From Hemerocallis citrina (Eukaryota; Streptophyta; Magnoliopsida; Asparagales; Asphodelaceae), in NCBI GenBank assembly GCA_017893485.1, contig CM030366.1:46188283-46252282 (forward strand): a stretch of DNA of 64,000 bases, written 5' to 3'. The notes beneath the pieces were generated by a model. It had not been told where the DNA came from. It made no database searches and worked only from the letters and a program-made list of their open reading frames with translations. Every line of letters starts with the position of its first letter. The stretch's first letter is position 1. Position numbers and translations under genes: made by a program. Shown here one piece after another: positions 5,525 through 49,015 of this stretch.

Positions 5525-6208
5525 GATCCAGGACGATATCGCGGGCTGATTGGGAAACTCATATATCTCTCAGTGACTATGCCAGATATTGTCTTTGCAG
5601 TTGGTCGAGCTAGCCAGTTTATGCATGCACCGACCATCACTCATTGGAAAGAAGTGGCTCACATTCTTCGCTATCTTAAGAAAGCCCCAATGTAAGGATT
5701 TCTCTTCAAGCCTGGTAATTCTCATTCTTCACAAGGTTATTATGATGCCGACTGAGCAGAATTGGTTGATGATAGATGCTCAACTAGTGGATACTATGTA
5801 TTCTTTAAAGGAAATCTCATATCTTGGAAAAGTAAGAAACAACCTGTTATAGCCAAATCAAGTTCAAGGTCTGAATACCGAGCCATTGAACATTTGGTCT
5901 CTGAAGTTTTATGGTTCAAAAATCTTCTTCAAGACATGGCAATCCAATTGTTATCTCCAGTTTCTCTCTATCGTGACAACAAGACTGTTATGCATATTTA
6001 TGAAAATTCGGTGTTTCATGAGCGCACAAAACATATCAAAGTTTATTGTCACTTCGTTCGATATGTGTGGGAGAAGAAGGTGATTTCATTCTCATATGTT
6101 TGGTCCGGTGAACAACTTACCGATATCCTAATTAAAACACTATCTCCAAAGGTTTTTCAAACTTTCTTGAGCAAGTTTGGCATCGATAATAACTATGCAC
6201 TAACTTGA
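5525..6208 (+). pseudogene. Ty1/copia pol, end of RT and RNase H (decayed)
   Basis: This continues the copia frame after the solo LTR. It begins in the conserved stretch around GRYRGLIGKLIYL (in two frames), then TMPDIVFAVGRASQF, and goes on to RNase H from about 5740: WMVDDRCSTSGY, SWKSKKQPVIAKSSSRSEYR, and LYRDNKTVMHI near 5970. The C-terminal HIKVYCHFVRY and LTDILIKTL motifs are typical of copia RNase H. The last 148 codons (5762-6208) are open, ending at TGA 6206-6208. Several frameshifts lie between 5590 and 5760. Confidence 0.9.
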
Positions 6209-8950: not shown

Positions 8951-10006
8951 ATGGCAGGACCTCGAACCAGGAGCAATGGTGATGGAGTAGAAAACTCCAA
9001 TAGGGGTAGGCTTGACTTGGAAGCTGAGATTGGGAGAGTTTATTAGACTCTCAATGCTTTCATGACGGTTGGAATGGGTCAGAAACCTATACTGGGACCT
9101 GCAAATCAGAATGTGGATCCCATCAGGCCGGTGGAGTCATTCAAGAGAATGAAGCCGCCTGTGTTTGAAGAGCAGGCCGACCCTAATGAGGCCAAAAACT
9201 AGATTAGACAGGTTGAGGCTATCTTTGAAGTGCTGGAGACTCCAACGGCTAGCACGGTGAAGTTGGCCACGATGCAGTTGGAGAAGGATGCCGGTGTCTG
9301 GTGGAAGTCCGTAAGGAGAACTTTCGGTGACGAACCGATTACCTAGGTTTCGTTCCTAGAGGAGTTCAGGGACCATTACTTCCCCATGGATATCTAGGAG
9401 GAGAAAGTAATGGAGTTTTTGAGCCTACAGCAGGGTAACTTGTCAGTGAGAGAGTATGAGACAAGGTTCACTCAGTTGTCGAGGTATGCTCCTGAGCTTA
9501 CTGCAGATGAAGCTAAGAAGGCGAGGAAGTTCGAGCAGGGCTTAAGGCCAAACCTGAGGTCTCGGATGATTTCGTTGGGAATCCTAAGATTTGACAAGCT
9601 TGTCAGAAGACCAGCAATGCCAGATGCAGATATGAAGCAGTTCCAGTCGAAGAAGGAAACCTGGAGTAAGAACAAGAGGCCGGCGGTGATGACTCACAGC
9701 AGGGGCAAGTTTTTGGAGAAGAGTGGTAGGATCAGTGAGCCCGGCAGAGGTGCGACACGAGTTCAAAGAGTGACTTGCTACAATTGTGGAGAGACAGGCC
9801 ACTTTAGAACCTCATGTCCTAAGTTAGAAAGGAACCAGACTTGTTTCCAGTATGGAAAGGAAGGACATATCAGCCCTGATTGTCCGCAACTGAAGCAGGG
9901 TGGCGCAAGTGGTGGCAAGCAGCAAAGGCAGGGGCGAGTATTCGCGTTGACAGAGGAGGATGCTGACAACTATGCAGACGTGATTACAGATATGCAAGAG
10001 TTTTAG
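8951..10006 (+). pseudogene. gag: gag of gypsy-1 (Ty3/gypsy chromovirus), with stops
   Basis: Gag is the structural protein that packages the element RNA into virus-like particles in the cytoplasm. The frame from ATG 8951 holds the retrotransposon gag domain (WWKSV near codon 118, then LSLQQGNLSVREYETRF and RYAPELTADE). It ends with two zinc knuckles: CYNCGETGHFRTSC (near 9776) is intact, while the second, starting CFQYGKEGH, has lost its second cysteine to tyrosine. Four in-frame TAG stops at 9044, 9200, 9344 and 9395 lie where glutamine or tryptophan is expected. The frame ends at TAG 10004-10006, which lies inside the putative intron 9990-10088. The start is chosen because it directly follows an acceptor-like AG. 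Confidence 0.9.
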
Positions 10007-10088
10007 ATTTTTGGCTGAAGTGTATTGAACAAAAACTTTGGATGAGAATGATAATGAGTATTGAATATTATGATTTCTCATGTAACAG
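9990..10088 (+). other. Putative intron between gag and protease (gypsy-1)
   Basis: A 99-base AT-rich stretch runs from ATATGCAAG (probably GTATGCAAG before a G-to-A change) to CATGTAACAG. Joining 9989 to 10089 puts gag in frame with protease: ADVIT then G then CVLLNG, the normal linker of this family. The junction falls after the first base of a glycine codon (phase 1). With the intron retained, translation stops at 10004. The Tekay-like element has an intron at the same place and phase (31543-31688). The mutated donor means this copy would no longer splice normally. Confidence 0.6.
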
Positions 10089-10515
10089 GATGTGTTTTGT
10101 TGAATGGAATAAAAGCTAAATTTTTGTTTGATACTGTGTCTTCGCATACTTTTGTGTCACCCAAATTTGCTAAGGTGTTAGGTGTTGAATCTAAGATGTT
10201 TCCAGGCAGGATTTTGTCAGTAGAAACTCCGTCAGGAGAGGAGTTAATTGCTGATCGGTATTACGTAGGGTGTGATATTGAGATCGGAGGAAGGCTTTTT
10301 GTGGGAATCGATTGGATGGCAATCCATGATGCTACAATTAAGTGCAAGCATAAGGAGGTGGTGGTGAAAGCACTAGGAGAACCTGCGGTGACTTTTCAAG
10401 GGAAGAGAGGGAGAACGAGGGTGGTCGTGGCACTATCGGAGATGGGATTTCCAGAGAAAGTCAGGGCAATTTTTGTAGTTCGAGATTTTCCAACTGTGTT
10501 CTTGGATGAGCTACA
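10089..10515 (+). pseudogene. Aspartic protease of gypsy-1 (inactive site)
   Basis: A retroviral-type aspartic protease cuts the Gag-Pol polyprotein. Here the flap and core motifs are visible (CVLLNG, HTFVS, VGIDWM), but the active triad reads DTV at 10130-10138 instead of DTG. About ten residues appear to be missing just before VGIDWM compared with the family. A one-base shift near 10520 separates it from the following reverse transcriptase frame. Confidence 0.8.
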
Positions 10516-10519
10516 TGAT

Positions 10520-11154
10520 TACCTCTGCAGCGTAATGCTGAGTTTTGCATCAACGTTCAGCGGGGTAGTGCTCTGATATCTAAAGCTCCTTATCAGATGG
10601 ATCCTGTGGAACAGGATGAAGTGAAGAAGTAGATCGAGGATTTGTTGCACAAGGGATTCATCAGGCCGAGTGCCTCGCCGTGGAGTGTTCCAGTGTTGCT
10701 CGTGAAGAAGAAGGATGGTTCAATGAGGATGTGCACTGACTATCGGGAGCTGAATAAGGTGATGATTCAAAACAAGTATCCGATCTCGAGGATTGATGAT
10801 CTTTTCAATCGACTGCAGGGTGCAGCTGTGTTCTTGAAGATTGATCTACGGTCAGGTTACAATCAGGTCCGAGGTAAGTTGGAAGATGTGCACAAGATTG
10901 GTTTCAGGACTCGTCATGGGCATTATGAGTTTTTGGTGATGCCGTTCGGGATGACGAACGCGCCAGCGGTATTCATGGATTTGATAAACAGGGTTCTGCA
11001 GCCGTTCATCGACTTGTTCATCGTGGTATTTATCAACGATATTCTGGTGTACTCAAAGATAGAGAAAGATCATGCTGAGCATATGGCAGAAGTTCTAAAG
11101 AAGTTGCAGGAGCAGAATCTGTGTGCCAAGTTGTCAAAGTGTGAAATCTGGTAG
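10520..11154 (+). pseudogene. Reverse transcriptase of gypsy-1
   Basis: Copies element RNA into DNA in the intact family. Motifs in order are: [69 protein letters not shown] and [12 protein letters not shown], followed by the catalytic YVDD-equivalent box. The box reads FIND instead of FIDD because codon 11035-11037 is AAC instead of GAC, so one of the metal-binding aspartates is lost. TAG stops at 10630 and 11152 stand where glutamine is expected. The enzyme is inactive. Confidence 0.92.
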
Positions 11155-24119: not shown

Positions 24120-25800
24120 GCTAAAAATAGTTAACTCACTGTTTGGGGTTAGTGTTGCTGTATGTTCGGAAGGCTGGAAGTTGGTCTTCCTTGTGGAATT
24201 AGAGATAGCGACCCTTTAGAGAAGTTGTAGTAGACATTCTCCCCTTTCCTAATTGACCTCTCGCGTTAAATTCCGTTAAGAAACGCAAAAGTTATGGTCA
24301 TTACAAAAACAGGACAGCAACTCGGCTGAGTTGCTCACTGTTTTTGTTGATTTCAGTTTTCGAACCTCTTAATGGTCGAATATGAGGTAGAGACCCATTG
24401 GAAAAGTTGTAGTAGACATTCTCCCCTTTCCGAATTGATCTCTCGGGCTAAATTCCGATGAGCGGAGTAGGAGTTATGACCTTTGGAAAATACAGCAAAA
24501 AGCCTTCTAACTGAGTAGGTACTGTTTTGACTCATTGAGGTTTTTGAGGGTCTTAGTGGTTGAATCTGAGGTAGATACCCATTAGAGAAATTTTAGTAGA
24601 CATCCTCCCCTTTCCGAATTGGCCTTTCGGGCTAAATTCTGATATGTGGAGTGGGAGTTATGCCTTTTGCAAAATACATCAACTAGCTATCTAAACTAGG
24701 TTCTTGCTGTTTAACTTCTTGGTCATTTTTGAGGGTCTTGCTTGATGAATCTGAGGAGCTGATCCATTAGAGAAGTTGTATTAGAATCTCTCCCCTTTCC
24801 GAATTAGCCTCTCAGGCTAGATTCCGATAAGTGGAGTAGAAGTTATGGGCTTTGAAAGGTTCAATTTTTCTTAGTTAAGTCGGCTGCTTTTGTTACCAAT
24901 TGTGTGTTCGATGGGTAGAAACTGGGATTTCCTTACGGAATCTAAGCAACTGGTCAACTGGAAAGTTTTAGTAAATATTCCCACCTTTTCAAATTGCCCA
25001 GTTTTGCTAGATTCCAATAAGTGGAGCAAAAGTTACAAGCTACGGAAGTTTTGACTTTTTGTTGAAAATCGGTAGTTTGGTAACTGTTTGCGTATGTTCG
25101 ACGGGTAGAAACATGGATTTCCTTGTGGAATCTAAGCAACTGGTCAACTGAAAAGTTTTAGTAGATGTTCCCACCTTTTTAAATTGTCCAATTTTGTTAG
25201 ATTCCTATAAGTGGAGCAAAAGTTACAAGCGACGGAAGTTTTGACTTTTTGTTGAAAACCGGTAGTTTGGTAACTGTTTGCGTATGTTCGACGGACAGAA
25301 ACTTGGATTTCCTTACGGAATATGAGCAACTGGTCAACTGGGAAGTTTTAGTAGATGTTCCCACCTTTTCAAATTATCTAGTTTTGTTACATTTCGATAA
25401 GTGGAGCAAAATTTACAAGCTACGGAAGTTTCGACTTTTTGTTGAAAATCGGTAGTTTGGTAACTGTTAGCGTATGTTCGACGGGTAGAAACTTGGATTT
25501 CCTTGCGGAATCTGAGCAACTGGTCAATTGGAAAGTTTTAGTAGATGTTCCCACCTTTTCAAATTGTCCAGTTTCGTTAGGTTCCGACGAGTGGAGCAAA
25601 AGTTACTAGCTTGCGAAGTTTCAACTTTTGTTGAAAATCTGCAGTTGGGTTAAACTGTTTGCGTTTGTTCGATGGACCAAATTTTGGATTCCTTACAGAA
25701 TCTGAAATAGTTTTCTACTAGAGAGTTGTGGCAGATATTCTTACTTTTCTAAAAAAGTATATTTTTGTCAAATTTCGACAAGCGCAGCACTGGTTGCTTC
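24120..25800 (+). repeat. Tandem array of about 188-base units
   Basis: Nine units are recognisable from the AGATTCCGATAAGTGGAG-like marker near 24270, 24455, 24640, 24825, 25010, 25200, 25390, 25580 and 25770. Units 5 to 8 are much more alike (GTTACAAGC, GGTCAACTGG) than units 1 to 4, which points to recent amplification within the array. Confidence 0.88.
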
Positions 25801-26190
25801 TAGGCTATCGGAAGGTTTTTATGTCGCTTTCCGTGCTTTTCTTTGGTAGTATGTTTGTACTAGACTGTTAGTAGACTCTTCTGTTTCATCTAATTATAGA
25901 AGATTAAGTTTTGCTAGTAAGCACGTTTGATTGCTTCTAGGTTGATTACCTGTATGGTTGTTTTCATATGTAGGTTGTCGTCTCATATGTGGCTCGACTG
26001 GCCCGTATATAGCTGTTGGTCTCATACATAGCTTATTTGGTACGTATGTAAGTTATTGTCTCGTACGAAGCTCATTGGGCTCGTATGTAGGTATTGTCTT
26101 GAATAGGTATGCTGTGAGTGGATCCGAGAGGATCTTGAGAAGTCTAGATTAAGACTTGGTTAATTGTTTCGACAAATTGTTACACTCTCT

Positions 26191-26690
26191 AGAAGAGGGA
26201 CATGTACGATGCTTTTTCTTGACAAGCTAGAAGCACAGTGCATGTCTCGCTTGTTTAGTTAGAAGAGGAACACGCACGGTGCTTTTTCATGTCAAGTTGG
26301 AAGCACAGTACATGTCTCGCTTGTTTGGTTAGAAGAGGGACACGTACGGTGCTTTTTCATGTCAAGTTGGAAGCACAGGGCATGTCTCGCTTGTTTAGTT
26401 AAAAGAGAGATACATACGGTATTTTTTCATGTCAAGTTGGAAGCACAGTGCATGTCTTGCTTGTTTAGTTAGAAGAGGGACACGTACGGTGCTTTTTCAT
26501 GTCAAGTTGGAAGCACAGTGCATGCCTCGCTTGTTGAGTTAGAAGAGGGACACGTACGGTGCTTTTTCATGTCAAGTTGGAAGCACAATGTATGTCTCGC
26601 TTGTTTGGATAGAAGAGGAACACATACGGTGCTTTTTCATGTCAAGTTGGACGCACAGTGACATGTCTCGCTTGTTTGGTTATGGTTAGT
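26191..26690 (+). repeat. Seven-copy 70-base minisatellite
   Basis: Units start AGAAGAGGGA (or a close variant) at 26191, 26261, 26331, 26401, 26471, 26541 and 26611, exactly 70 bases apart. Each contains GGTGCTTTTTCATGTCAAG and CATGTCTCGCTTGTTT. The family B copy at 14726-19537 has no such array. Confidence 0.95.
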
Positions 26691-27399
26691 GACATCGTTA
26701 GGGTAGTAACAGTTACTTAACCATTTTTAACTATAAATTGCCAAAAGGTGAGAGTTGGTGTTAGGGGTGATACCCTATAATCCAACATCTCCTATAGTCT
26801 GACACTAGGTGGTGTTATCGGGATGTATTCCCCTGTCAAAGGGATATGGGCGGTGCTTTTTCATGACAAGTTGGGAGCACGGGCTCTGTATCTTGATTGT
26901 TAATTCCTGAATGTGCCATGATAATAACGAGAGGGTTTCCTAGGAAAACAGACCCTACAATCCCGGTAGGTTCTATGCCTTCTCATGACCAGTTGAGGGC
27001 ACGGAAGAAGGTTGACAAGTATCTTGTAGTCCATGTTGGCTTTTGAGTGAGGTCCGGTACGTCGGGCAATAGTCGCCAGTCATGTAGTATTATGTCAGGA
27101 ACAGGATGGGTACAAAAGTAGAATTCATGGCACGGGTTCAAATTCCTATATATAAAGAAACGGCTTGAGATGGGGCGTATGTAGTATGAGCTGCATAATG
27201 TTTCGGAGACTTTCTTGCATTAGAATAAGTGCATCATTGCATTGGTTAATTTCGCATTAGAGTCTAAGTCATAGCATACACTGACACATCAAATATATAT
27301 ATACACGTTTCACTTTTCATTAATCTGTTTGCTTTAGTTGAGATCCGCTGCTAGTTATCAGCCTTAAAGCGTCAGTGAATACTGATGTCCCCACTTTAA

Positions 27400-27452: not shown

Positions 27453-27799
27453 GTTTCAGGAGGACTCAAGGTGAGAGAGCAAGGAGTCGATTTCATTAGA
27501 GTTTCTGTTGTAAATTATTTATTTGTTGGAAAGTATCCAAGTGGAATACCAAGTGTTGTTCTTTATTCATTATACTCTGATGTAATATGTTGAAAGATGT
27601 AACACTTAGAATTGTAAAGGTATTATTGTAACACTGTTGTAATGTATTGCAATTTTGTAACATTCGGATTTGTAATATATTTGTGTTGAATAAAAAGTTT
27701 TAAATTTTTCTGTTTTTCTGTGTATTGTGGCTAATTAAAGAAAAGATTCTGGCTTATGTCACGGTTTTTCAGTTACTGGAAATCGGGCGTTACATAATT

Positions 27800-28107
27800 A
27801 ATGTGGGTATTTATAGGGATCAGAAAATTAGGATTTAGGTTAAGATTTAGTGGGTCCTGGGTTTCAGTTCTGGCTCCAAAAAGAGACAAACAAGGGCAAT
27901 GAGACGAGACGAACACAATGGAGAAAAAATCAAATTCAAAAGAGAAAAAGCAACATTTACAAAAGAACAAAATCAAGCCAAAGAGCATAGATTGATCAAG
28001 AGAAAATAAAGAAAGACCAAGAAAAGCAAAATACTTCATAATAAAAGAATTCAATTATAATAATCAAAAGAATACAAAATACATGAAAATTGAAAATAGG
28101 GCTTACA
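27800..28107 (-). repeat. 3' LTR of the Tekay-like element, proximal piece
   Basis: The first 308 bases of the LTR in transcription order, matching 38206-38505. It contains a TATAAATACCC-like sequence on the minus strand (near 27808-27818). It begins, on the minus strand, TGTAAGCCCTATTTTC. Confidence 0.93.
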
Positions 28108-28122
28108 AATCCTACCCACCTT
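28108..28122 (-). other. Polypurine tract of the Tekay-like element
   Basis: On the minus strand AAGGTGGGTAGGATT abuts the 3' LTR, the usual start of plus-strand DNA synthesis. Confidence 0.8.
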
Positions 28123-28219
28123 ATGAGAAGAATTTCGTCCTCGAAATTTATACAAGAGGTGCATAGGGCAAACCCCTGAAACAAACAAACAAAACAATGC
28201 AAAACAAGTAAAACAATCA

Positions 28220-29520
28220 CTACTCAAATAAATGAGGAAACCTCTCCCGAATCCTTTCCTCTAACTCCCAAGTAGACTCCTCTGGCGAGCGAGGATCCCA
28301 AGAAACTCGGACCAACTTGATGAATCTATTTCTTAACACCTTCTCTTGATAGTCTAAGATAGAGACAGGTCGAATTTCACAGGACAAATCCAGCCTCACA
28401 GACAAGTCTGAGTAGTCAACCACATGACTGTCATCTCTGATGTATTTCCTAAGCCGAGAAACATGGAATACATTATGGACACCTGCTAAAGCTGGCGGTA
28501 ATGCGAGCCTGTAAGCTACCTTGCCCATACATTCCATAATATCGAATGGACCGATGAATCGAGGACTCAACTTGCCTCCACTGCCAAAACGGATAACACC
28601 TTTCCAAGGCAACACCTTGAGGAACACATGCTCGCCTGCTTCAAACTCTAGGGGTCTTCGACGACAATCAGCCCACCTCTTCTGCCGATCCTGAGCGGCC
28701 TGCAAATGCTTGCGAATCTGAGCCATGGCGTCAACTGTCTTCGTGATCAACTCAGGGCATAAAAGTTTCCTCTCGCCGATATCATCCCAACAGACTGGCG
28801 ATCTACAATTGCGCCCATACAATGCTTCGAATGGAACAGCCTTGAGACTCGCCTGATAACTGTTATTATAAGAGAACTCGGCCAAGTGAAGATGATCCTC
28901 CCACGAACCTCCAAACTGAAGAATGTAGGATCTCAAAATATCTTTTAGGATCTAAATTGTCCTTTCTGACTGTCCATCCGTTTGAGGATGGAACGCTGTA
29001 CTGTAGCTCAGCTTAGTACCCAAGCTCCTCTGCAAACTCTCGCAGAACTGAGATCTGAACCTTGTATCTCTATCCGATACGATGCTGACAGGAACTCCAT
29101 GCAGACGAACAATCTCCTGAACGTATGCTCAGCCAAACTCTCCGTGGACTGACCCACACGGAAAGGAGTGAAGTGGGCACACTTCGTCAGCCGATCCACT
29201 ATCACCCAGATAGCATTATCACCATTAGGTTTCCTCGGCAAAGCTATCACAAAGTCTATCGTGATGTTCTCTCACTTCCATTCAGGGATAGGATGGGGTT
29301 GCAAAAGTCCTGCGGTCCTCTGATGCTCTGCCTTCACCTGCTGACAGATTAGGCACTGGGCGACGAATCGAGCCACATCCCGCTTCATACCATGCCACCA
29401 AAAATGTTGTTTCAAGTCCCTACACATCTTGGTACCACCAGGATGTATGGAATACGGGAACCAATGAGCTTCCTCGAGTAGCTTCTGCTTGACATCTCCT
29501 CTAGGTACACACAACCTAGA
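28220..29520 (-). pseudogene. Integrase with chromodomain-like tail, Tekay-like element
   Basis: Read on the minus strand from 29520: the zinc-binding domain (two histidines in AHWFPYSIHPGGTKM, then CLICQQVK) and the catalytic core with [12 protein letters not shown] and TDGQSE. All three catalytic acidic residues are still present, though in different frames and with stops (TGA near 29271, TAG near 28954). The last 238 codons (28936-28220) are open: SYNNSYQASLKAVPFEALYG, the GPY/F module KLSPRFIGPFDIME, VHNVFHVSRLRKY, and the tail VLRNRFIKLVRVSW...EESTWELEE ending PHLFE. That tail is the chromodomain-like region typical of the Tekay/Del lineage. Stop TAG at 28222-28220. Confidence 0.93.
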
Positions 29521-30488
29521 GCCAAACCGAAGCGACCCATCAGCATGGACAAAAAATCAGACCGCGAACCAGCCTCAACCACGCTCCGAAACTCCTACAA
29601 TTGCTGATCACTCCCTTGAGTTGCCTTGATCTGCTTTACAAAGGATGACTGCAACTGCAACAACATAAGCTGCCGATCTGATCCGGGAAGCAACACATCT
29701 AACTCAAGCCTCCTCATGTCCTCCACAAGCTCCTTCTGCTGAGTGAGGAACATAGCGGCAGGCCTCCGACTCAAAGCATCTGGCACTGAATTTATTTTGC
29801 TCGGGTGATCCTGCAAATTGATGTCAAAATCTGCCATCAACTACAGCCATCTTCTCTGCCTCATGTTTAGCTCCTTCTGCATGAACACATATTTGAGGCT
29901 TTTGTGATCTGTGAAAATCTTAACTCTATCCATAAGCAAATAGTGCCTCCATAACTTCAAGGCATAGATCACAGCAGCTAGCTCCAGATCATGCGTATGA
30001 TAGTTCTTCTCGTGAGGTCTCAACTACCTCGAAGCATAAGCAACAACTCTGCCTCGCTGCATCAGCACTGCTCCTAAACCTCTTCCCGAAGCATCACAAA
30101 AGATCACAAAACCACCCGAATTGTCAGTTACAGTCAGCACTGGCGCTGACGTCAACTGATGCTTCAACTCGGCGAAAGCTTCATCACAAGCTTCATCCCA
30201 GACGAACTTCTGCTCCTTCCTGGTCAAACTGGTCAAGGGTCCAGCAATCTTGGAGAAATCCTGAACGAACTTCCGGTAGTAACTAGCCAAACCAAGAAAA
30301 CTCTGCACCTCAGAAACAGACTTCGGAATAGGCCAATCCTTGACCGCAGAAATCTTCGACGGATCCACAGAAACACCAGCACCAGAGATAATGTGGCTAA
30401 GAAAAGCAACCTGATCCAACCAGAACTCGCACTTATCGAGCTTCCCATACAGCTGGTTCTCCTTCAAAGTCTGCAGAACCACCTTCAA
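29521..30488 (-). pseudogene. RNase H region, Tekay-like element
   Basis: RNase H follows the RT connection (FLSHIISGAGVSVDPSKI, SEVQSFLGLASYYRKFVQDF). Motifs are [54 protein letters not shown] and NSVPDALSRR. Three premature stops (near 30021, 29838 and 29592) are TAG at likely Gln positions. The frame is otherwise continuous. Confidence 0.92.
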
Positions 30489-31052
30489 ATGCTCAGTATG
30501 ATCTGCCCTGTTTCACGAGTACACTGGTATGTCGTCAATGAAAACCACGACGAACTGATCCAAGAACGGCGAAAACACATGGTTCATCAAACTCATGAGC
30601 ACTGCCGGTGCATTAGTCACTCCGAAAGGCATCACCAAGAACTCATAATGCCCATATCTTGTTCGGAAAGCCGTCTTTGGAACATCCTCTGACTTCACCC
30701 TGACTTGATGATACCCGGAACGCAAATCCAACTTTGAGAATACCGAAGCACCACCCAGTTGGTCGAACAAATCTTCGATCCTCGAGAATGGATACCGATT
30801 CTTGACGGTAACTTTGTTCAACTCTCTGTAGTCCATGCAAAGCCTGCAGCTTCCATCATTCTTACCGACAAATAGAACTGGGGCTCCCCACGGTGAAACA
30901 CTAGGTTTGACAAAATCCTTGTCAAGTAGCTCCTGAACCTGAACCTTCAACTCCGCCAACTCAATCGGCGCCATACGATACGAACTCTTGGAAATATGGG
31001 CCGTACCAGGCAGAACATCGATACAAAACTCCATATCTCGGACTGGCAGCAA
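30489..31052 (-). pseudogene. Reverse transcriptase, Tekay-like element
   Basis: Motifs in order are: [62 protein letters not shown] and TNAPAVLM, then the catalytic box FIDDIPVYS with both aspartates kept (30536-30531). The 179-codon frame 31052-30513 is nearly intact and ends at TGA after VYS, probably a former Arg (CGA) codon. This is the best preserved RT in the window. Confidence 0.94.
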
Positions 31053-31542
31053 ACCGGCAACTCCTCAGGAAACACATCAAGGATGTCCCCCACAACCAGT
31101 GGTGCAAAAACCCTATTAGAACCCAGTAACGCAAGGGAAACAACTTCGAAATTCAATGAGTTCTTGACACGCCCTGACGGTGTCTCACCCGCATGGAAAA
31201 CGAACTCTGGCTGTCCAGAAGGCCTAAAAGTCACCTTCTTCTCACGAAAATCAATCACGGCACAGGAAACACCCAACCAGTCCATGCCCAGAATGACATC
31301 GAAACTGGAGTTGGGAATCATAATCAGATCAGCCACAAAGACCACACCACTAATTTGCAACGAACTCTGCTTGCAAACCCGAGAACAGAAAATGACACCT
31401 CCTCCAGTGGTGATGTCCCATGCTGCGGGCATAGCATTGTAAGCGAAACCATGCAGATCAACAAATCGAGTAGAAATGAAAGAGTGGGTAGCACCCGAAT
31501 CAAACAACACATGAGCAGGGAGAGAGAAAACTAAAATCACAC
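31053..31542 (-). pseudogene. Aspartic protease, Tekay-like element
   Basis: The active site VLFDSGATHSFIS (DSG at 31501-31493) is intact, followed by the flap-like stretch and FDVILGMDWLG, the standard C-terminal motif of the gypsy protease. It continues with VTFRPSGQPEF and FPEELP towards RT; a frameshift occurs near 31065. In intact relatives the protease matures Gag-Pol inside particles. The domain starts directly after a putative intron (31543-31688). Confidence 0.92.
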
Positions 31543-31688
31543 CTAGAAGAAAACCAAACAAAGAATAAGATGCTAGCAGGATATACACGAATAATTGCAC
31601 AAGGGAGAGAGAAATAAAGATAACAATAACAATAACATGCAAAAAACTGAAAGAGAGAAAGAAAGAAAGTACAACTACAGTGATATAC
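31543..31688 (-). other. Putative intron between gag and protease (Tekay-like)
   Basis: On the minus strand, GTATATCACTG (from 31688) to a T-rich stretch ending TTTTCTTCTAG (31543), 146 bases. Removal joins VGVVA, a glycine codon split after its first base, and VILVFSLPAHVLFDSG, giving a continuous gag-protease linker. If retained, translation meets TAG four codons after the junction. A good polypyrimidine tract is visible. It has the same location and phase as 9990-10088 in gypsy-1. Confidence 0.72.
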
Positions 31689-32267
31689 CTGCAACCACTC
31701 CAACAGCATCTGTGTAATACCGTGATTTTTCATTTATGAGAATTATTATTTTGTATTATTAAATTGTACGTATTGTGCACGTGCAATCTTGTGGTATAAA
31801 TTTTTATAAGTATTTTCATTACATAAATAATTGAGTATACATATATATATGTTCTTTCTATTGTTTTTATTAAAGCCTATTTTAAACAAGCATAAGTATT
31901 TCTTTATATTTTGATCCCAATCTAATTTATTTTAAATATAAACTATTTTGGCCCACTAAATAAAAGCCCATCAATTTATTTCTTTTTAATTCTTACCACT
32001 TGTAGTGTAGACACTTTTATAGACTTTTTTTATAAATAATTAAATGTACAACTTTTTGGAATGGGGGGCTTTAGAAACACGTGCATTGCACTAGCACGTG
32101 TTTGTGCTCCTTGTGAGGCCGGATAGGAATGGGAGGGAAAAAGAGAGTGGAGTTTGTGGGAGGTAGTTTTGTAGTCATGGTTGGTTACTACAACTTTCCA
32201 TTTAATCCTAGCCCTTGTTTCTTAACTCCTAGATCAATCTTAGCCTTCTATTTGTCCTAAATTTTTG

Positions 32268-32275
32268 TATAAATA
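32268..32275 (+). promoter_or_regulatory. Putative LTR-E TATA box
   Basis: TATAAATA followed by CCCCCC, 556 bases from the LTR start. It matches the TATA-plus-C-run layout of family B. Confidence 0.55.
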
Positions 32276-33184
32276 CCCCCCCTAGCCTAACTATCCTTAC
32301 ACTTCTCATTCATCAAACCTATAGAGATAGAAAATAATTATTAGTAGTAGATTGTGTATTGGTAGAGAGTGAGAATAAAAGATTGAGAGTTGAGTGTGCT
32401 TGCATTCAAGGAGGCCGGCTACACCTAGAGAGGCTCGGTTTGCACTAGGAGCAAGGAGGAGAAGTACTTTCGGGCAAGCTCAAACTAGGAGGAGAAGGGC
32501 TCTTTCATTCTAGGAGTTTTTTGTGGTTGTTTTTCTCTCCAAATTAGGTGAGTGGTTTTCCTTACTTCTAATTCTAGTCACCATGCTAGGAATGATGACA
32601 TAATTAGCATGAAAGAAACTAATAAGAGTACACTTAATTTGAAAAAGGACTTGTTAGATATTATAATTAATGCTTGGTAGATTGTATGTTAACTTGTCAT
32701 GAATCTTAATGTTGTAGCACAATTTGCTTTGTAGTTATGGAAATATTAAATTGGGTTTATGATAATGTCAAAATTGAGTATGAATTGCTAATAGATGAAA
32801 TTATTGTTTTATGCACTAAATGGACTATCTTGATATTGGTTCTAATGTATAAATTTGTCCTATGCATTTGGGTTAATGAAAGAGGGAAGAACAGGGAATT
32901 ACAAGTATAATGTGATTTTTTTTAATACCAAATTTTTATTTGAGAATTGTCAAATTGAATTATGGAAAGAGTAGTATAGAGTTTAAATTATTGTATGAAA
33001 AACGTATGTTTTATTAGTGAGAAAATTATTTTAAAAATACTAGAGTATTAATTTAATATGGAATTAGTATTCTGGAGATTTACATGATATTTTGTGCAAG
33101 TAAAACAAAGATAAGAGCTTTTGAACATCGAAACGTTTTAATTAAACAGAGACTCGAGTTAAGTAAACTCGAGTTGTGTTTGTG

Positions 33185-33450
33185 ACAACTTGAGCACATA
33201 GCTCAAGTGGTCGGTGAGTCTTTCTGGCGCTACTGTAGCGTGGGAGTGGGTCTTGGAAGTCGCTGGTTCGATACCTTATGTCCACCTTATTTTTCTGTGT
33301 GCAGTTAAAAAATACCCAACCCGAACAGAGGGTATATGACCCTCTCACCACTCTTCATATTACTAAGCGCATTCGGCCTAGGGGCTAGTGCGTGGGGCTG
33401 TTTTCTCTAAGGTTGCGGGTTCGATTCTGGTTATGGCCAGATAATGTATT
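33185..33450 (+). other. Two tRNA-like (pol III box) stretches in LTR-E
   Basis: The first has a good A box TAGCTCAAGTGG (33199-33210) and a good B box GGTTCGATACC (33265-33275). The second has GGTTCGATTCTGG near 33418 with a weak A box. The spacing is longer than in real tRNA genes and no cloverleaf forms, so these are SINE-like rather than tRNA genes. Confidence 0.5.
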
Positions 33451-34996
33451 TTTTTAAAGATTGGGAGCTTTCTTGATGTATAAAAATTCCAAAAAAAAAT
33501 ACCTTTATTATTCTAAAATCATATACAATCTATGAAAATTAATTGGGAGTTATTGGACTAAAATAAAGTGTATTTTTGAGGTAGAATTGTATTCGAAACT
33601 ATTGTTTCTTACCTTTATAATTTCATAAAAATCTGTGTTTTCATGAGGTTATTAATATAAATGTTAAAAGGAAAAATTGATGAAGGAAAATATAATTTTG
33701 ATTTTTTTATGGGTTATTTTGTAAAAAGAGTAGTGTGACAATAGTGATTTTGTGAATATTCACTTTGACTAGATATTTTCGTAATATGATCTTAATGTGG
33801 GAATAAATGTTGGTTATTGAAATGCATGATTTACAACTGAACTATATGTATGAAATTTCGATGCATGAAAAGATTGGAAATTTTTTAATTGGGAAAAGAG
33901 AATTCTTTTTGAGCATGACAAACTCAATATGAGAATTGTGGATTGAAATTGAAAATTAGGGTGTAGCCAAGACTCACACCGGCAATTGAAAGAAATGAGA
34001 TATGATAATTGAATTGAAAAGACCATATTTGGGTCATTGTGAAATGAAAGAAATAAGCCCGGTATCAGTGAGAGTGCTGACCCTAAGAGATTGATTTTGT
34101 TTATGAGTTCATTAAATTAAGGATTAGTACATAGTGAAGAGGTGATGAAAGTGAGAGAAAAACACAAGTATGAGGGCCTCGAGTCTACGATGTGGGTGTG
34201 ATTTACAGTTTGTCTTCACGATGCGTCGTGACATGACGTGGGCACTACTCCGGAATTATCGGGATCTTGACGATGCTTGTGGGATGTTTGGTGACTGCGA
34301 GATGATCGTGTGCCATGACGGAGGCTGAATTGTCCATAGGTTGTCTTTACGATGCGTCGTGACATGACGTGGGATTCCCCTCTAGGTTGTCTGTACATGA
34401 GCTTGTTACTCATAGAACATCTAGGATACTTACCGTAGTTACAGTAGTAGATTAAGTCATGACGAGGGATTGAACCCTACAAGATGAAGAATGAATAAGA
34501 GGCTTGCCCTCGGACCTATGTAGTATGGGATGCATAGAATCCGAACAAGTACGCATTAGTGTCATATAATATAAATAACTGCATTAAGGACTAGGTGCAC
34601 AGTCATAACACGACATCAATAGGATATTCCCCTTAGTTTGATTGTGAACAAGTTTGTGTTTGTTAAGTATGGAAAATCATTATATTGTTTCCGGCATAGA
34701 AAGGATGGTCGTGTATAATTTCGTCTGTTGAATAAACTGATGTATCCACAGTTTTGTATGCAGGACAAATGGCATGATAAAGATTGAAGAAGAACTGATG
34801 CTTAGAGATTATTCAAATGTTGTTATACTTTCATTCACGTAAATGTTGTAATTTTGCTTCCGCTGTAAAGTGTAAAGATTCATTTGTAACTCTGATGTAA
34901 AGTAAAAGTTTTAAATTCCTTGCAAAATTGTACGAAGTGAAGTAAAGATCCTGTGGAATCTCGAATTCATTTGTATTTGGAATTCGGGGTGTTACA

Positions 34997-36192
34997 ATCT
35001 GCTACTTCCTCAGCTGTCAGGTTATAAACCTGACCACGACCACCAACCTAACCACCTCTAGGAGCCACACGCCTCTGATCGAAGACATGCCTCTCCGGAG
35101 GAAGCGATGGCCTTCCCTGACCATGCGTCGGCGCTCCTAGCTGAGCAGCACCAGTAACCGGCACAGAACCTCTGCTACTCGGACAATCACGTACCATGTG
35201 CTCACTGCTTCCACACACTAAACACTACCGGTTGGCCCTCCTGCAGTCTCACTGTGAATGCCCGGTCTTGTGACAAAAGCCACAAGTCTCAAAATTCCGC
35301 GGGACAACAGGTGCGTACAGCTGTGCTCTCGTGGGAAGGGGCGGAACTGACCTCTGAATAGGTCCTCCAGAAGGTCGAGGTGCAACGGGGTGCGAAACTA
35401 TCCTCTGAGGAACACTGGATCTGCTAAGAGTCTGCGCTTGGATCTAAGCCGCATCCAAAACATCGGAGTAAGCGCGAAGCCGAAGAGCAGCCAAATGGCC
35501 CTGGAGGGAAAAACTCAAGCCCGACAGAAAATGACTAGCCCAAGCCTCATCAGTGGCAATGAGGGTAGGGGCGAAGCGACTGAGCTGAGTAAACTCTGCA
35601 GCATACTCGTCCACGGAACGGGTTCCCTGATTAAGATAATGCTCAAATTAATAGCGTCACAAGTGAAGTAGGTAACAATAAATGACAATTAAGAACATTA
35701 TCTAGCTGACCTGAGTTAGGAAAACAAATTGTCGCTCCATCTCTGCCTTGGTGACACCGAGAAGGAACTTTGCCATGAAGCTCTCAGAGAAAGTGGCCCA
35801 CTCAATGGGTCCCGGCATCCTCTCGGATTCAACCCGCCACCAGATATGAGCGAGATCCACCGGCTGGATGCGAACCACATCCACATGATCCGCCTCAGCA
35901 ACATGAGCAGCAACCAGTAGTTGCTCCGTCCAGATGAGTCATTGCTCGGCTTCCAACGGAGACTCAGTACTCGAAAACTTATCTGGGTGCAACCTCATGA
36001 AATCCGCTACCGTACCAGGCCTAGGTGGAATTGCACCAAGTGGCGGTCCAGCGGCATTCCCATTGGCTGCCAAGTGGCTCTCATCAACTCATTGTGCTCC
36101 TGCTAAAGAGCCTTCATCTGCTCGATCGTCTCGAGAATAGCAGTGTTTTCCGGCTGCTGATTCGAGCGAGAAGAAGAATTCCCACGAGCCAT
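34997..36192 (-). pseudogene. gag: gag of the Tekay-like element, with stops
   Basis: The minus-strand ATG at 36192-36190 lies 3 bases after an acceptor-like TTTTAG. The N-terminal region is glutamine and charge rich, followed by FMRLHPDKF, VRIQPVDLAHIWWRVE, ESFMAKFLLGVTKAEMERQF and DEYAAEFTQLSRFAP, the retrotransposon gag domain. Near the C-terminus are two zinc knuckles: CGFCHKTGHSQ.DC (near 35287-35246) and CLVCGSSEHMVRDC (near 35222-35181), with TGA and TAG stops in and beside the first. A 69-base segment at 35642-35710 interrupts the gag domain and may be another intron. The frame leads through TAEEVAD to the protease linker. Frame breaks near 36005 and 35930 and stops show it is not functional. 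Confidence 0.9.
35642..35710 (-). other. Possible small intron or filler inside gag
   Basis: On the minus strand the segment starts GTCAGCTAG and ends TTTGAG, 69 bases, AT-rich and with stops. Leaving it out keeps the gag frame open (VFLTQ then HYLNQGTRSVDEY). It is at the lower size limit for a plant intron. A fold-back or filler insertion is an alternative. Confidence 0.35.
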
Positions 36193-36195
36193 AGC

Positions 36196-36282
36196 CTAAA
36201 ACATGATCAAAGATGGTCAGTACCCTGATCATATGTTGGTTATTATACATGCATTCATGTGATTACTGTGGTGTGTACTCAC
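36196..36282 (-). other. Putative 5' leader intron (Tekay-like)
   Basis: On the minus strand an 87-base segment runs from a consensus donor CA/GTGAGTAC (36282) through a branch-like TACTGACCAT to TTTTAG (36196), 3 bases before the gag ATG. Gypsy-1 has a comparable acceptor 10 bases before its gag ATG. Confidence 0.55.
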
Positions 36283-36376
36283 TGAGTTATCCTGGTTAGA
36301 GCCAAGCTCGACTAATATACCAATCAAAGCTAACCCTCGTAAAAATAGTCATGTTTGATTGATATATTACTCAACC

Positions 36377-36391
36377 GGGGCTTTGATACCA
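36377..36391 (-). other. Primer binding site (initiator Met tRNA type)
   Basis: On the minus strand TGGTATCAAAGCCCC, close to the TGGTATCAGAGC sequence complementary to plant initiator methionine tRNA, 10 bases inside the end of the 5' LTR. It sets the start of minus-strand DNA synthesis. Confidence 0.8.
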
Positions 36392-36401
36392 CTAAAAACC
36401 C

Positions 36402-38505
36402 TGTCACGCCCCGCTTCCCAGGATACGGGAACACGAGCATATAACGTAGGCCCAGCAAATGATGTAAACACCATCCATATGCTGTACCAAGCTAACTCAG
36501 CAATAAAACAAAAAGATACAACCACGCAGGAAAATATAATCACATGAAACAAGATGAATTCCAATAATAATGAAATAAACCAACAGTATGAATATCCAAC
36601 ATATGGGAAAATAAAACAAAACTACGGGTCATAGAGCCCAAACAAATACAAGTTCATAATAATGTTCAAGAAATAAATGGCAATAAGAAAAATTATGCAG
36701 TGAAAACTGGATCCATCTCTAGAAATGTTGCTCACCAATACCTTCAGGAATAGTTTCTTCAGCACCTGTAAATTCCTGGTCTAAAAAAAATTAAAAGGGT
36801 GCCCTTAGATCAAGTCGTGGGCGGCAAGTAGAGAAAGCGGCAAGTAGAGAAAACAAAGAGTGAAGGAAAACATGGATATCAAGAATAAGGACATGGTCAA
36901 AGACAAGAAACAAAACAAAGAGCAGGAAAGATATCAAAGGTGTACAGTAAATCACGCATGAAATGAGTGATATCAGTATCAAGCAGGAAATGTAGGTTAT
37001 TAAGTATTTTATTAGACTATCTAGTGCACGTACTACTGCATCCCATACTACAGATTCCACACAACACACTGAACGCTTTAGACCGATGGTAAATTCACGG
37101 TTCATGTACTAGGCCCAGAATTAGGGTATCATGTTCAGTGTCAGTGTTTCTTGAGCAGTGTTTATGGCCATACAGTACAGTCAGTCAGTACAGTCAGTGT
37201 TTATGGGCATGAAACATGTTAAAGATCAAAGAGATAGCACGAAGTTAAGAGTATGTCGGGTTAGCTCGTGTAAACCCTAGATAATCTTAACGGAATTGTC
37301 AAAACAGATTTTTGATAATAAAAAGGGAAGGATCTACTTGCATGAGATCAATTAATCGTGAACACAAATAATGAAAGGGGTTCAAGAAAAGACTTGCATA
37401 TTATTGCAGATATTAATAAAAATAATAGAATAACAGGATCAGAATTCCGGGCGAAATCTCCCAAACACGTGCGAACAACAGCGAAGAAATCCCAAGAAAA
37501 ACCAAATAGTAACTCAACTAAACTCCACACTGGATCGGGCCAAACACAGGACAGCAACACGGGATCGGGTGTGGGCAAAACATGGTAAACCAAATCTAGC
37601 CACTCAGTGATCAAAGATCCTCACACTGGATCGGCCAGAACATGGGACAGCAAAACGGGATCCGGTGTGGGCAGAACACGGTACACAAAATCCACTTAAT
37701 GGGGGATCGTCTTCAACATCGGCAAGAGAGAGAGAGCGCGATCGATCAGGGATGGTGCGACGCGACGACTGCACGGCAGAGCGATTTCATACCACAGTCG
37801 GGAAGCGACGGCAGCAATGTTACTCGCGACAAACGGCGGTTCTGTTCTTCGGTCGAACACAGGGGATGACGGTGCTCGACTGGGGGCACGAGCGGCGACG
37901 CAAAGGGATGGGGAACACGACGATAAAGTGCACCGGGGGCGAACAAGGTGACGATGAGGAGTAGCAGCGATGGGAACTTCGGTGGTTGAGTTGACGGATA
38001 ATGGCGAGGGCACGGTGGACGCGACGACGACAGGGACGATGAGGGAACGATGGGGATGACGATGGGGATGACGATGGGAGATGATCGGGGTTAATGGCGA
38101 TGGGGTGGTGGGGTGTTTGAAAATAGAGAGCAAAGAAAGAGAGGGTCGGGGTGAGAGAGAGAGAGCGCAGCAAATGAGAGAGAGAATTAATTAGGGTTAA
38201 TTAATGTGGGTATTTATAGCGATCAGGAAATTATGGCTTAGGTTAAGATTTAGTGGGTCCTGGGTTTCGGTTCTGGCTCCAAAAAGAGACAAACAAGGAC
38301 AATGAGACGAGACGAACACATTGGAGAACAAATTCAAAATAGAAAGAGCAACATTTACAAAAGAACAGAATCAAGCCAAAGAGCATAGATTGATCAAGAG
38401 AAAATAAAGAAAGATCAAGAATAGCAAAATACTCCATAATAAAAGAATTCAGTTATAATAATCAAAAGAATACAAAATACATGAAAATTGAAAATAGGGC
38501 TTACA
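36402..38505 (-). repeat. 5' LTR of the Tekay-like element (family A)
   Basis: 2104 bases; matches the 3' LTR except for an internal deletion of about 1 kb at 37175-37225, where CAGTCAGTCAGTACAGTCAGT repeats mark the junction. In transcription order it has a TATA-like box, GA repeats, a CpG-rich stretch (38100 down to 37740) and an AT-rich remainder to GGGGCGTGACA. Confidence 0.94.
38206..38216 (-). promoter_or_regulatory. Putative TATA box of the Tekay-like 5' LTR
   Basis: TATAAATACCC on the minus strand, about 290 bases from the LTR start and upstream of a GA-repeat and GC-rich leader. The other LTR keeps the same sequence. Confidence 0.6.
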
Positions 38506-38510
38506 ATGAA

Positions 38511-38877
38511 CCTTCTGTTGTTGTTTTATTTCATGATGTATGACAAGTTTGTGATTATGAGACTTTGGAGGGTTGCTATTACTATGGTATTGCATCAGCT
38601 GTCTTCAACTGACGTCCCCACTCTAATGGTCAATTTTACAAGATTTGCGAGTAAGTTGCTTGAGCAAGGTTGAGGCTTGGAGTTCGAGATGACTGAAGTT
38701 TAAGTAATGGGATGTGTTTTAATAAATATGTGTAATTTTTCCGCTGTGCAATGTAATGAAAAACTGTTGTAATGAAAGTTGTATTTTTTCACTGTGTTTG
38801 TACTGTGTTTGGATTACATTGAAGTAAAGATTTTGGATTTGTCTCTTATTTTCATTATTGAAATTCGGGGCACTACG
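38511..38877 (+). repeat. 3' LTR of gypsy-1 (family D), piece 3
   Basis: The final part, resuming after the Tekay-like element. It contains CAACTGACGTCCCCACT (from 38606) and ends GGGGCACTACG, a mutated form of GGGGCGCTACA seen in the sister LTR at 60681. Confidence 0.85.
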
Positions 38878-47229: not shown

Positions 47230-48349
47230 TGTAGCGCCCCAAATTCCTATATTAGGAACTCGTGACACAATCCATAGTCTTACTTCAAATGAATCCAAAC
47301 ACATAAAATTCACAAGAAATTAAAAACTTTTTATTACATTAAATGTTATTACAATGTCCAATGATTACAAGAATTACAATAAATTATTACATCATGAATG
47401 TACAATAAAATTAGACAGTGAACTTCTACTTGGATGCTTTCCACGGCTTGAGTTTTCCCGCGCTCCCCACGATCAGGTAGTTCTGCAAACTCACCAAACT
47501 GTGGACACGTCACTTGAACGTAAATGACGCATTGCTGATGAAACCAACGACTCCAAAACTTCAACAACCAGAAATATTGATGCAAAAGAAAAGCATGATG
47601 TCAAACCAAGTGTTAATGTATGCCATGGCCTAAATTTAATGCTCACTCGAAATGCACAAGATGCTCTTATTCTAATGTGCGTCTGATTGGAAAGATATGC
47701 ATCCCATACTACACATTCCTCAATCAATTGACATTCTTCAGATGATAGGGTTTGATCCCCTGCCTTGCATCCTACTCTTGTGCTCTCTCTCTGTTACTGA
47801 CATTCTAGTGATGAAGAGGTTGCAGTCGTACGGTTCAGTCTCGTCGCTGTAGTCAATAGTGGTGTATGTACCCTGTTCATTTTTTACTATGCCCGGTATT
47901 GCAGTCGAACAGCATAGTTCCGCCACTGCAGTCAAACAATGGTGTTGTAGTAATTTTGCCTTCCTGGACCTCATCAAAAAGCTGCTGTACAGACATGGTA
48001 CCCCCATTCACCGAAGACATTAGAGTCTTACTCATCGAGTCGTCTCTAAGTCCCCTGCCTGCATTGAGCAACATAGAACTTGGCGGATTCTTAGAGTTTC
48101 CCATAATCTCCACTTTACTCGTCCTTACATTAGACCAGAACATGCAGTCGAGATGACATCACCACTCCGGTCCTTATCAAAAGTTGTTATAGACATAAAG
48201 GTGCTCCACGGTACCCCCTGTTCACCGAAGATATTAGAGTTTTACTCACCGAGTCTTCTATAAGTCTCCTGCCCGCATTAAACGGAATTAGGACTTGGGC
48301 CAGTGTAATGATGCCTTGTGTCCCCCTGACAGGTGAGTACACACCCACT
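47230..48349 (-). mobile_element. LTR, family F, outer piece 1
   Basis: The plus strand begins TGTAGCGCCCC, homologous to 61434 onwards. Together with 60682-61278 it forms one minus-oriented LTR, shown by perfect AACCA duplications at 47225-47229 and 61279-61283 and by restoration of the element X frame across it. The piece ends near 48349, where gypsy-2 sequence begins without an LTR, so both may have lost bases. It contains ACGTCACTTGAACG (from 47507) and CATCCCATACTACACATTCC. Confidence 0.88.
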
Positions 48350-49015
48350 AATGCTTACAACAACAGTTACCATGCAAGCATTGGTATGGCACCTTATGAA
48401 GCTTTGTACAGGAGGAAGTGCAGAACACCCATCTGTTGGTACGAGGTTGGAGAGAGGCAGATGTTTGGGCTAGAGATTGTGCAGCAGACGTCAAAGAAGA
48501 TCGAGCTGATTCCGAAGGGATTAGTCGAAGCTCAAAGCCGGCATAAGATTTATGCAGATACTCGGTGTAGGGACTTGGAGTTCGAGGTTGGGGATACAAT
48601 TTTCCTCAAAGTATCTCCGAAAAATGGGAGTAATCAGATTTGGGAAATGAGGCAAGTTGGCGCCGAGGTACATTGGGCCATACAAATTTTTTTTAGGCGA
48701 ATCGGTAAAACGACGTACAAGTTGGAATTGCATGAAGAATTGGCACAGGTGCATGATGTGTTCTATGTATCGATGTTGAGGAAGTATGTTCCAGATCAGA
48801 GTCATCAGTTGACGGAAGTGCCCGATGGATTGCACCTAAACTTCAGCTATAGGGAGCAACCTGTGGAGATTGATGATCGGCGGAAGAAGGTGTTGCGAAA
48901 TAAAGTCATACCAATGGTCAAGGTTTTCTGGATGAATTAGTTGTTCGAGGAGGCCACTTGGGAGCCGGAGGACTGCATGAAGAACGATTTTCCTGAACTC
49001 TTTGTGTAATTTTAT
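48350..49015 (+). pseudogene. Gypsy-2 integrase C-terminal part and chromodomain-like tail
   Basis: Only the end of pol is present: NNSYHASIGMAPYEALYRRK, CWYEVGERQMFG, RDLEFEVGDTIFLKVSP, VHDVFYVSMLRKYVPDQSHQ and the tail VLRNKVIPMVKVFW...EEATWEPED, ending ELFV TAA near 49007. The frame 48308-48940 is open to a TAG at a position where gypsy-1 has glutamine (NQLFEE). Near 48640-48690 the GPY/F region is garbled by small shifts. It is closely related to gypsy-1. The whole 5' part of the element is missing. Confidence 0.9.

Follow-up and report, generated by a model that had tools for sequence, protein, structure and literature searches.

Retrotransposons, being copied through RNA, are expected to lose introns, and the locus described here raises the question of whether one family has kept two of them, and to what effect. 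The locus lies in a window of 64,000 nucleotides from Hemerocallis citrina (NCBI GenBank assembly GCA_017893485.1, contig CM030366.1, positions 46,188,283 to 46,252,282), which is the whole stretch of DNA analysed and to which all coordinates below refer. The window carries, on its minus strand, a long terminal repeat (LTR) retrotransposon for which a first-pass annotation had proposed a GT-AG intron in the gag-protease linker, with unspliced RNA making Gag and spliced RNA making Gag-Pro-Pol. Our analysis suggests, with a probability of roughly 0.82, that this element belongs to a Ty3/gypsy chromovirus-like family with two spliceosomal introns, one in that linker and one inside gag, and that copies lacking either intron arose from spliced RNA.

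The linker segment (31688-31543, minus strand, 146 nt) begins with GTATATC, finishes with TTCTTCTAG and has a pyrimidine-rich body; it lies between ...GAT GCT GTT GGA GTG GTT GCA G upstream and GT GTG ATT TTA... downstream (phase 1). Reading the frames confirms what had been said of it: removal gives the in-frame junction DAVGVVAG-VILVFSLPAHVLFDSGATHSF, and retention gives ...A-G-I-S-L-stop, i.e. a stop four codons on. Removal thus joins the two frames as claimed, but gag is not adjacent to the linker in the window copy, where a 3,284-bp insertion with LTR-like ends stands between them; both this insertion of about 3.3 kb and the gag intron (35710-35627) had been missed. When the 3.78-Gb genome from which the window comes was searched, 2,254 candidates emerged, 40 of them scored matches and one of these the window itself; the 39 other matches were fetched, and the alignments comprised 38 copies plus the window for the linker and 29 plus the window for gag. 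Aligning family copies, by which the first-pass annotation had proposed to look for the insert, bore it out: the segment was found in 53 of the 90 family copies fetched, with GT kept in 51/53 and AG in 47/53. Its length in these copies ranges from 125 to 150 nt (134-150 nt in the 39 first alignment rows) and falls into all three classes modulo 3 (21, 14 and 18 copies for classes 0, 1 and 2), and its retention brings a stop within five codons in 50/53.

The linker segment also varies in length without frame constraint: shared non-triplet insertions or deletions (indels) number 11 in 146 nt (7.5 per 100 nt), compared with 4 in 211 nt of the non-coding leader (1.9 per 100 nt) and with 2 in gag exon 2, 1 in the protease and none in either gag exon 1 or the reverse transcriptase part (0-0.32 per 100 nt). 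The uridine (U) content is 0.55 in the linker segment, 0.43 in the gag segment and 0.22-0.48 in nearby exon pieces, each segment being richer than the exon pieces beside it; the gap between the linker segment and its own 3' exon piece (0.55 vs. 0.48) is below the criterion for plant introns of about 15% more U than in exons (PMC3735527). Conservation of the borders, freedom of length and the 44 exact intronless junctions described below strongly support the proposed intron, and the linker segment is, as judged from sequence, almost certainly spliceosomal.

The second putative intron (84 nt, GTCAGC...AATCAG, phase 0) lies inside the capsid domain. The Retrotrans_gag profile matches gag exon 1 of copy L020 over positions 2-58 (E 7.6e-07), the match ending at the exon's last residue, and gag exon 2 of L024 over positions 59-96 (E 0.0011, below the gathering score), the match beginning at its first residue; the profile breaks exactly at 58|59, and therefore the segment splits the capsid domain with nothing lost on either side. 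Its third codon is an in-frame stop in 29 of the 30 aligned rows. Of 58 copies, 55 have GT at the 5' border; 42 carry a segment of 84 nt, 8 one of 83 nt and 3 one of 85 nt. Net divergence between the two main lineages of the family is 0.046 for this intron vs. 0.037 for the end of exon 1, so that the two are conserved to a similar degree; for codon positions 1/2/3 it is 0.057/0.038/0.099 in gag exon 2 and 0.033/0.016/0.115 in the protease, and by this measure both behave as coding sequence in the frames expected after splicing. An 11-bp inverted repeat begins 7 nt inside each end of the gag intron, and the intron folds as a hairpin. The end-to-end stem pairs in 94.7% of cells over 29 distinct rows vs. 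38-54% when slid; no covariation was found, with no two-sided change in these rows and shuffles doing equally well, and five single folds gave z from −3.1 to −0.8.

Genomic copies from which these segments are exactly missing are the decisive evidence for the linker intron and extend to the gag intron. Junction patterns (25 nt for the linker, up to 3 mismatches, with the reversed pattern as control) matched the intronless linker junction at 44 genomic places, nine of them without mismatch (control 0), and the intron-bearing junction, by a pattern across the 5' border, at 1,192 (control 0); for gag, the intronless junction was matched at up to 61 places and the intron-bearing one at 988 (control 1). 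Thirty-one of the 44 linker-intronless places were fetched, and the gap from gag exon 2 to protease is 21 nt in 28 of them, vs. 155-171 nt with the intron; the exceptions are L060 (14 nt), L071 (5 nt) and L059, which has no gag exon 2 match. The gag segment is in none of the 20 copies fetched from the 61 gag-intronless places, mostly the closest matches; exon 1 abuts exon 2 in 19 of these 20, L086 lacking a match to exon 1. The linker segment is retained in 14 of the 20, and in the other 6 that stretch is truncated or rearranged. Typing of 91 copies, selected by pattern and including 15 that are readable only in part, showed absence of the linker intron alone in 24, of the gag intron alone in 14 and of both in 3. 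Family members without the linker segment had been named in advance as evidence against an intron; they became support for it, because the loss lies exactly at the GT and AG borders, and the 44 places are scattered over the tree. Two GT-AG pairs served as decoys, one bounding 87 nt of the leader (36282-36196; up to 3 mismatches) and one inside the protease; neither gave a joined junction genome-wide, their unjoined forms being uncounted, and a third intron in the 5' leader, for which the former was the candidate, was rejected on this result.

The final tree comprised 81 rows, 10 of the 90 fetched copies being omitted for short matches, and requires 17 changes of linker state and 17 of gag state. 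The 24 rows that lack the linker intron alone require 17 label changes, 12 of which well-supported branches make unavoidable; for the 14 rows that lack the gag intron alone the numbers are 14 and nine. The data for an earlier tree of 63 rows rejected the grouping of every intron-bearing linker in a single clade (p 0.0002), and likewise that of the four gag-intronless rows (p 0.0004). In the first trees one divergent lineage, here called A, appeared never to have had the linker intron, but the intronless pattern itself had been used to choose those rows. A recent gain of the linker intron in the window's lineage was rejected, as copies chosen by other criteria have this intron. Seven divergent gag-intronless copies, five in lineage A (L080, L081, L085, L086, L091) and two near the base of the other lineage (L089, L092), have a linker intron 70-75% identical to that of the window, next to a protease that is 80-85% identical. 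The lineage-A-type protease motif occurs at 843 places, which overlap with the 1,192 above and from which 16 copies, off the tree, were sampled regardless of intron: the linker intron is in 14, two gag-less derivatives keep only its 3' half, and the clean intronless linker form is in none of the 16. The gag segment is present in 11 of them and unreadable in 4; L112 has both gag exons but no match to the segment, its spacing being unchecked. Both introns thus occur in both main lineages, and both are therefore old. As a separate observation, L102 and L105, 87% identical over ~1 kb, run from the 5' leader through unmatched sequence and the 3' half of the linker intron into the protease, with gag absent, and are perhaps a gag-less derivative depending on others.

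Two intron-like segments are thus exactly absent from genomic copies scattered over the tree, and the simplest cause of this repeated exact absence would be that occasional spliced RNA is reverse transcribed, yielding exact intronless genomic copies; copies that lack just one intron would, most simply, derive from RNA spliced at that intron only. In the most likely model, reverse transcription would usually start from unspliced RNA, since the great majority of the counted places still have the intron in question, and this RNA would code for neither full Gag nor Pol, because both introns have in-frame stops in most copies. The proposal that unspliced RNA makes Gag and spliced RNA makes Gag-Pro-Pol therefore fails as first stated: with the stop in the gag intron, fully unspliced RNA would be unable to give full Gag, only about its first 161 residues. 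A Gag/Gag-Pol switch may survive in a changed form, however: RNA without the gag intron but with the linker intron would be read as Gag, with its stop four codons into the latter; removal of both introns would give Gag-Pro-Pol; and the ratio of Gag to Gag-Pol would then be set by how completely the linker intron is spliced. Packaging would normally shut out spliced RNA, though imperfectly. We tentatively suggest, at somewhat less than even odds, that genome and message are separated in this family, such that the RNA packaged and copied is unspliced and codes for neither full Gag nor Pol, and all proteins come from spliced RNA that is mostly kept from particles. If this is true, packaging would have to rely either on sequence within the introns or on the RNA avoiding splicing, perhaps via the conserved hairpin-forming gag intron.

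Several observations weigh against two introns whose splicing acts as a switch. The AG border of the gag segment is present in 46/58 copies as cut (four more look offset by one base in our own reading), and the gag segment has no shared indel in 30 rows. The pattern counts, by which the intronless form accounts for 44/1,236 places for the linker and at most 61/1,049 for gag, are approximate and compare different strings, and some of the gag junction matches are expected by chance, the reversed pattern matching 12 places vs. 61. Nine lineage-A rows without the linker intron cluster together (93/95; L072, L065, L076, L068, L071, L077, L057, L075 and L078), L065 and L076 being nearly identical; they are possibly a propagating intronless subfamily, which, if real, would mean that the linker intron is not indispensable. 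This clustering may be partly sampling, because all nine were picked by the intronless pattern. The intron structure and its repeated exact loss are shown from DNA, and splicing in vivo is read from these genomic copies; the Gag/Gag-Pol switch is a proposal.

Of the alternatives, the one that survives best accepts both introns and does without the switch: the two would always be removed together for translation, the excess of Gag would be made otherwise, and retained introns would only mark unspliced RNA for packaging. Copies with an intronless linker could still give Gag-Pol from a single frame, and the nine-row lineage-A group may have propagated. However, the 24 linker-only, 14 gag-only and 3 double losses among the 91 typed copies indicate, in the simplest reading, that singly spliced RNAs were copied, and we regard joint removal as unlikely, albeit a serious contender to partial splicing.

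It is far less probable that intronless copies owe their state not to spliced RNA but to an ancestral lineage without introns, through recombination or gene conversion. LTR elements commonly switch templates between co-packaged RNAs, which would provide a route, and the flanks of L060, L051 and L061 are compatible with exchange on the 5' side, where in our own reading they are uninformative. Yet no ancestral intronless lineage was found: among the 16 lineage-A-type copies, 14 have the linker intron and 2 are gag-less. Moreover, L048, L058 and L053 (near the window copy) and L052 (in another group) match, again in our own reading, their own subfamily at sites within ~26 nt of the junction both upstream and downstream, which argues against exchange with another lineage; each would need a tiny exchange tract centred on the junction.

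Small DNA-transposon or introner-like insertions with precise excision are more improbable still: the inverted repeat of the gag segment (11 bp, 7 nt from each end) and its hairpin fold would suit such an origin, but the two segments are unlike, occupy fixed sites in both lineages and have GT-AG ends, and there are no terminal repeats at the borders and no footprints in the junction copies shown. That the linker segment is a decayed linker or slippage-prone filler without function is the least likely of all: the age and damage of the window copy (LTR divergence ~7.9%, frameshifts, stops) and a pyrimidine tract of a kind prone to slippage would suit it, but GT (51/53) and AG (47/53) are kept while lengths vary over all three classes, the protein reading requires removal of the segment, and the exact loss between GT and AG seen in many lineages contradicts it.

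The window copy, in which we place both putative introns, runs on the minus strand from a 5' LTR of ~2.1 kb (36402-38506), followed at 36391-36380 by a sequence resembling a primer-binding site, TGGTATCAAAGC, which we take to be of the tRNA-Met type. Gag exon 1 (35711-36192, ATG to FLTQ) has a broken frame in this copy; it is followed by the gag intron (35627-35710) and by gag exon 2 (34997-35626, GTRSVDEY... to YNLTAEEVAD), which includes the target site of the nested insert. The nested insert (31713-34996, minus strand, TGTAACACC...GGTATTACA, borders by eye) is solo-LTR-like and foreign to the element; it has a target site duplication, CAGAT, at 35001-34997 and 31712-31708 (by eye), and its site is empty in relatives. 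Beyond it lie the end of the gag-protease linker exon (31689-31712, DAVGVVAG), the linker intron (31543-31688, GTATAT...TTCTAG), the protease exon (31111-31542, starting VILVFSLPAHVLFDSGATHSF; Pfam RVP_2, E 1.4e-31), reverse transcriptase and RNase H in a broken frame (30024-31064; Pfam RVT_1 and RT_RNaseH_2), a C-terminal part of integrase (28220-28951; Pfam SH3_Tf2-1, E 5.7e-24) with a weak chromodomain match (Chromo, E 0.0019, under the gathering score), and the first part of the 3' LTR (27795-28107), which is cut by a nested insert and resumes at ~22801-20049. This second nested insertion (~27789-22801) contains tandem arrays at 24155-26749 with units of 70, 190 and ~184 nt. The Pfam domains stand in the order gag, protease, reverse transcriptase, RNase H, integrase, and the Tekay-like label appears to fit this layout. 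A protein search with gag exon 2 returned no relatives at E 0.001, and an Rfam scan of 28000-38600 returned nothing at gathering thresholds. Stops and frameshifts break gag and pol, and the window copy is therefore unlikely to be active; between its LTRs 7.9% of the aligned sites differ, a figure that includes two short secondary matches and that at an assumed rate of 1.3e-8 presumably corresponds to an age of ~3 million years. Elsewhere in the window, the list of open reading frames (ORFs) contains other Ty3/gypsy-type pieces at 9398-11154 and 48134-48940 (plus strand) and a copia-like RNase H piece at 5756-6208 (plus strand), the families being assigned by eye.

The rice centromeric retrotransposon, CRR, is a chromovirus. 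CRR and Bagy2 have been named as splicing Gypsy elements, and CRR resembles the present family in being a Gypsy element with spliced transcripts; however, its splicing removes rt and creates two ORFs (PMC3735527), whereas the introns here are short and stand in gag and before protease. Plant LTR elements are generally intronless, with Ogre and EVADE as named exceptions (PMC12786077). Ogre (Ty3/gypsy, Tat lineage; pea and Medicago) is like the present family in that an intron is removed from some transcripts so that the polyprotein can be read (PMC6317226), but that intron lies between protease and reverse transcriptase, whereas here one lies inside gag and one between gag and protease. Ogre also has an extra ORF before gag (PMC2533021), for which the ~210 nt between the 5' LTR and gag are too short here; the window element thus has neither of the two features that mark Ogre. 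Splicing near the gag-protease boundary sets Gag vs. Gag-Pol in EVADE (Ty1/copia, Arabidopsis) and BARE1 (Ty1/copia, barley) (PMC12786077, PMC3735527), but in these elements unspliced RNA codes for Gag-Pol and splicing yields a Gag-only RNA, in BARE1 by removal of 104 nt just past gag (PMC3735527), whereas here the reading of Gag-Pol would need splicing. The spliced form of BARE could not be amplified from genomic DNA (PMC3735527), whereas copies of the spliced form were found here by pattern.

Medicago Mtr58, a Tekay/Del element of 8.8 kb with LTRs of 2.1 kb, a tRNA-Met primer-binding site and the order gag-protease-reverse transcriptase-RNase H-integrase (PMC2533021), shares its LTR length of ~2.1 kb and its gene order with the present family; the available portion of that paper mentions no intron in Tekay, whereas the family described here has two putative ones. 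Tf2 of fission yeast is likewise an LTR element with a cryptic intron, but its splicing is linked to small interfering RNA and to methylation of lysine 9 of histone H3, and the portion available contains no statement of a split gag (PMC7175516). Sunflower elements have several spliced isoforms, the Tekay clade being absent from the expressed set (PMC7730604), and a paper from 2005 knew of no intron upstream of gag in LTR elements (PMC1142308). Within the partial coverage of these sources, which makes this weak evidence of absence, we noticed no report of an intron inside gag or in a Tekay linker. As intron-bearing LTR elements are already known, we rate the combination of a gag-splitting intron with a linker intron as a new variation.

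By pattern, the family numbers over a thousand copies in the 3.78-Gb genome, and its two introns have outlasted the divergence of its lineages while dozens of copies show their precise loss; therefore, either their retention is actively kept or their loss is rare. The intronless fractions (44/1,236 places for the linker and ≤61/1,049 for gag) hint that the selectivity of packaging might be estimated from genomic DNA. With the capsid gene split by an intron, the genomic RNA of this family would not be the Gag mRNA, contrary to the usual assumption, and annotation requiring a single ORF would label such copies defective.
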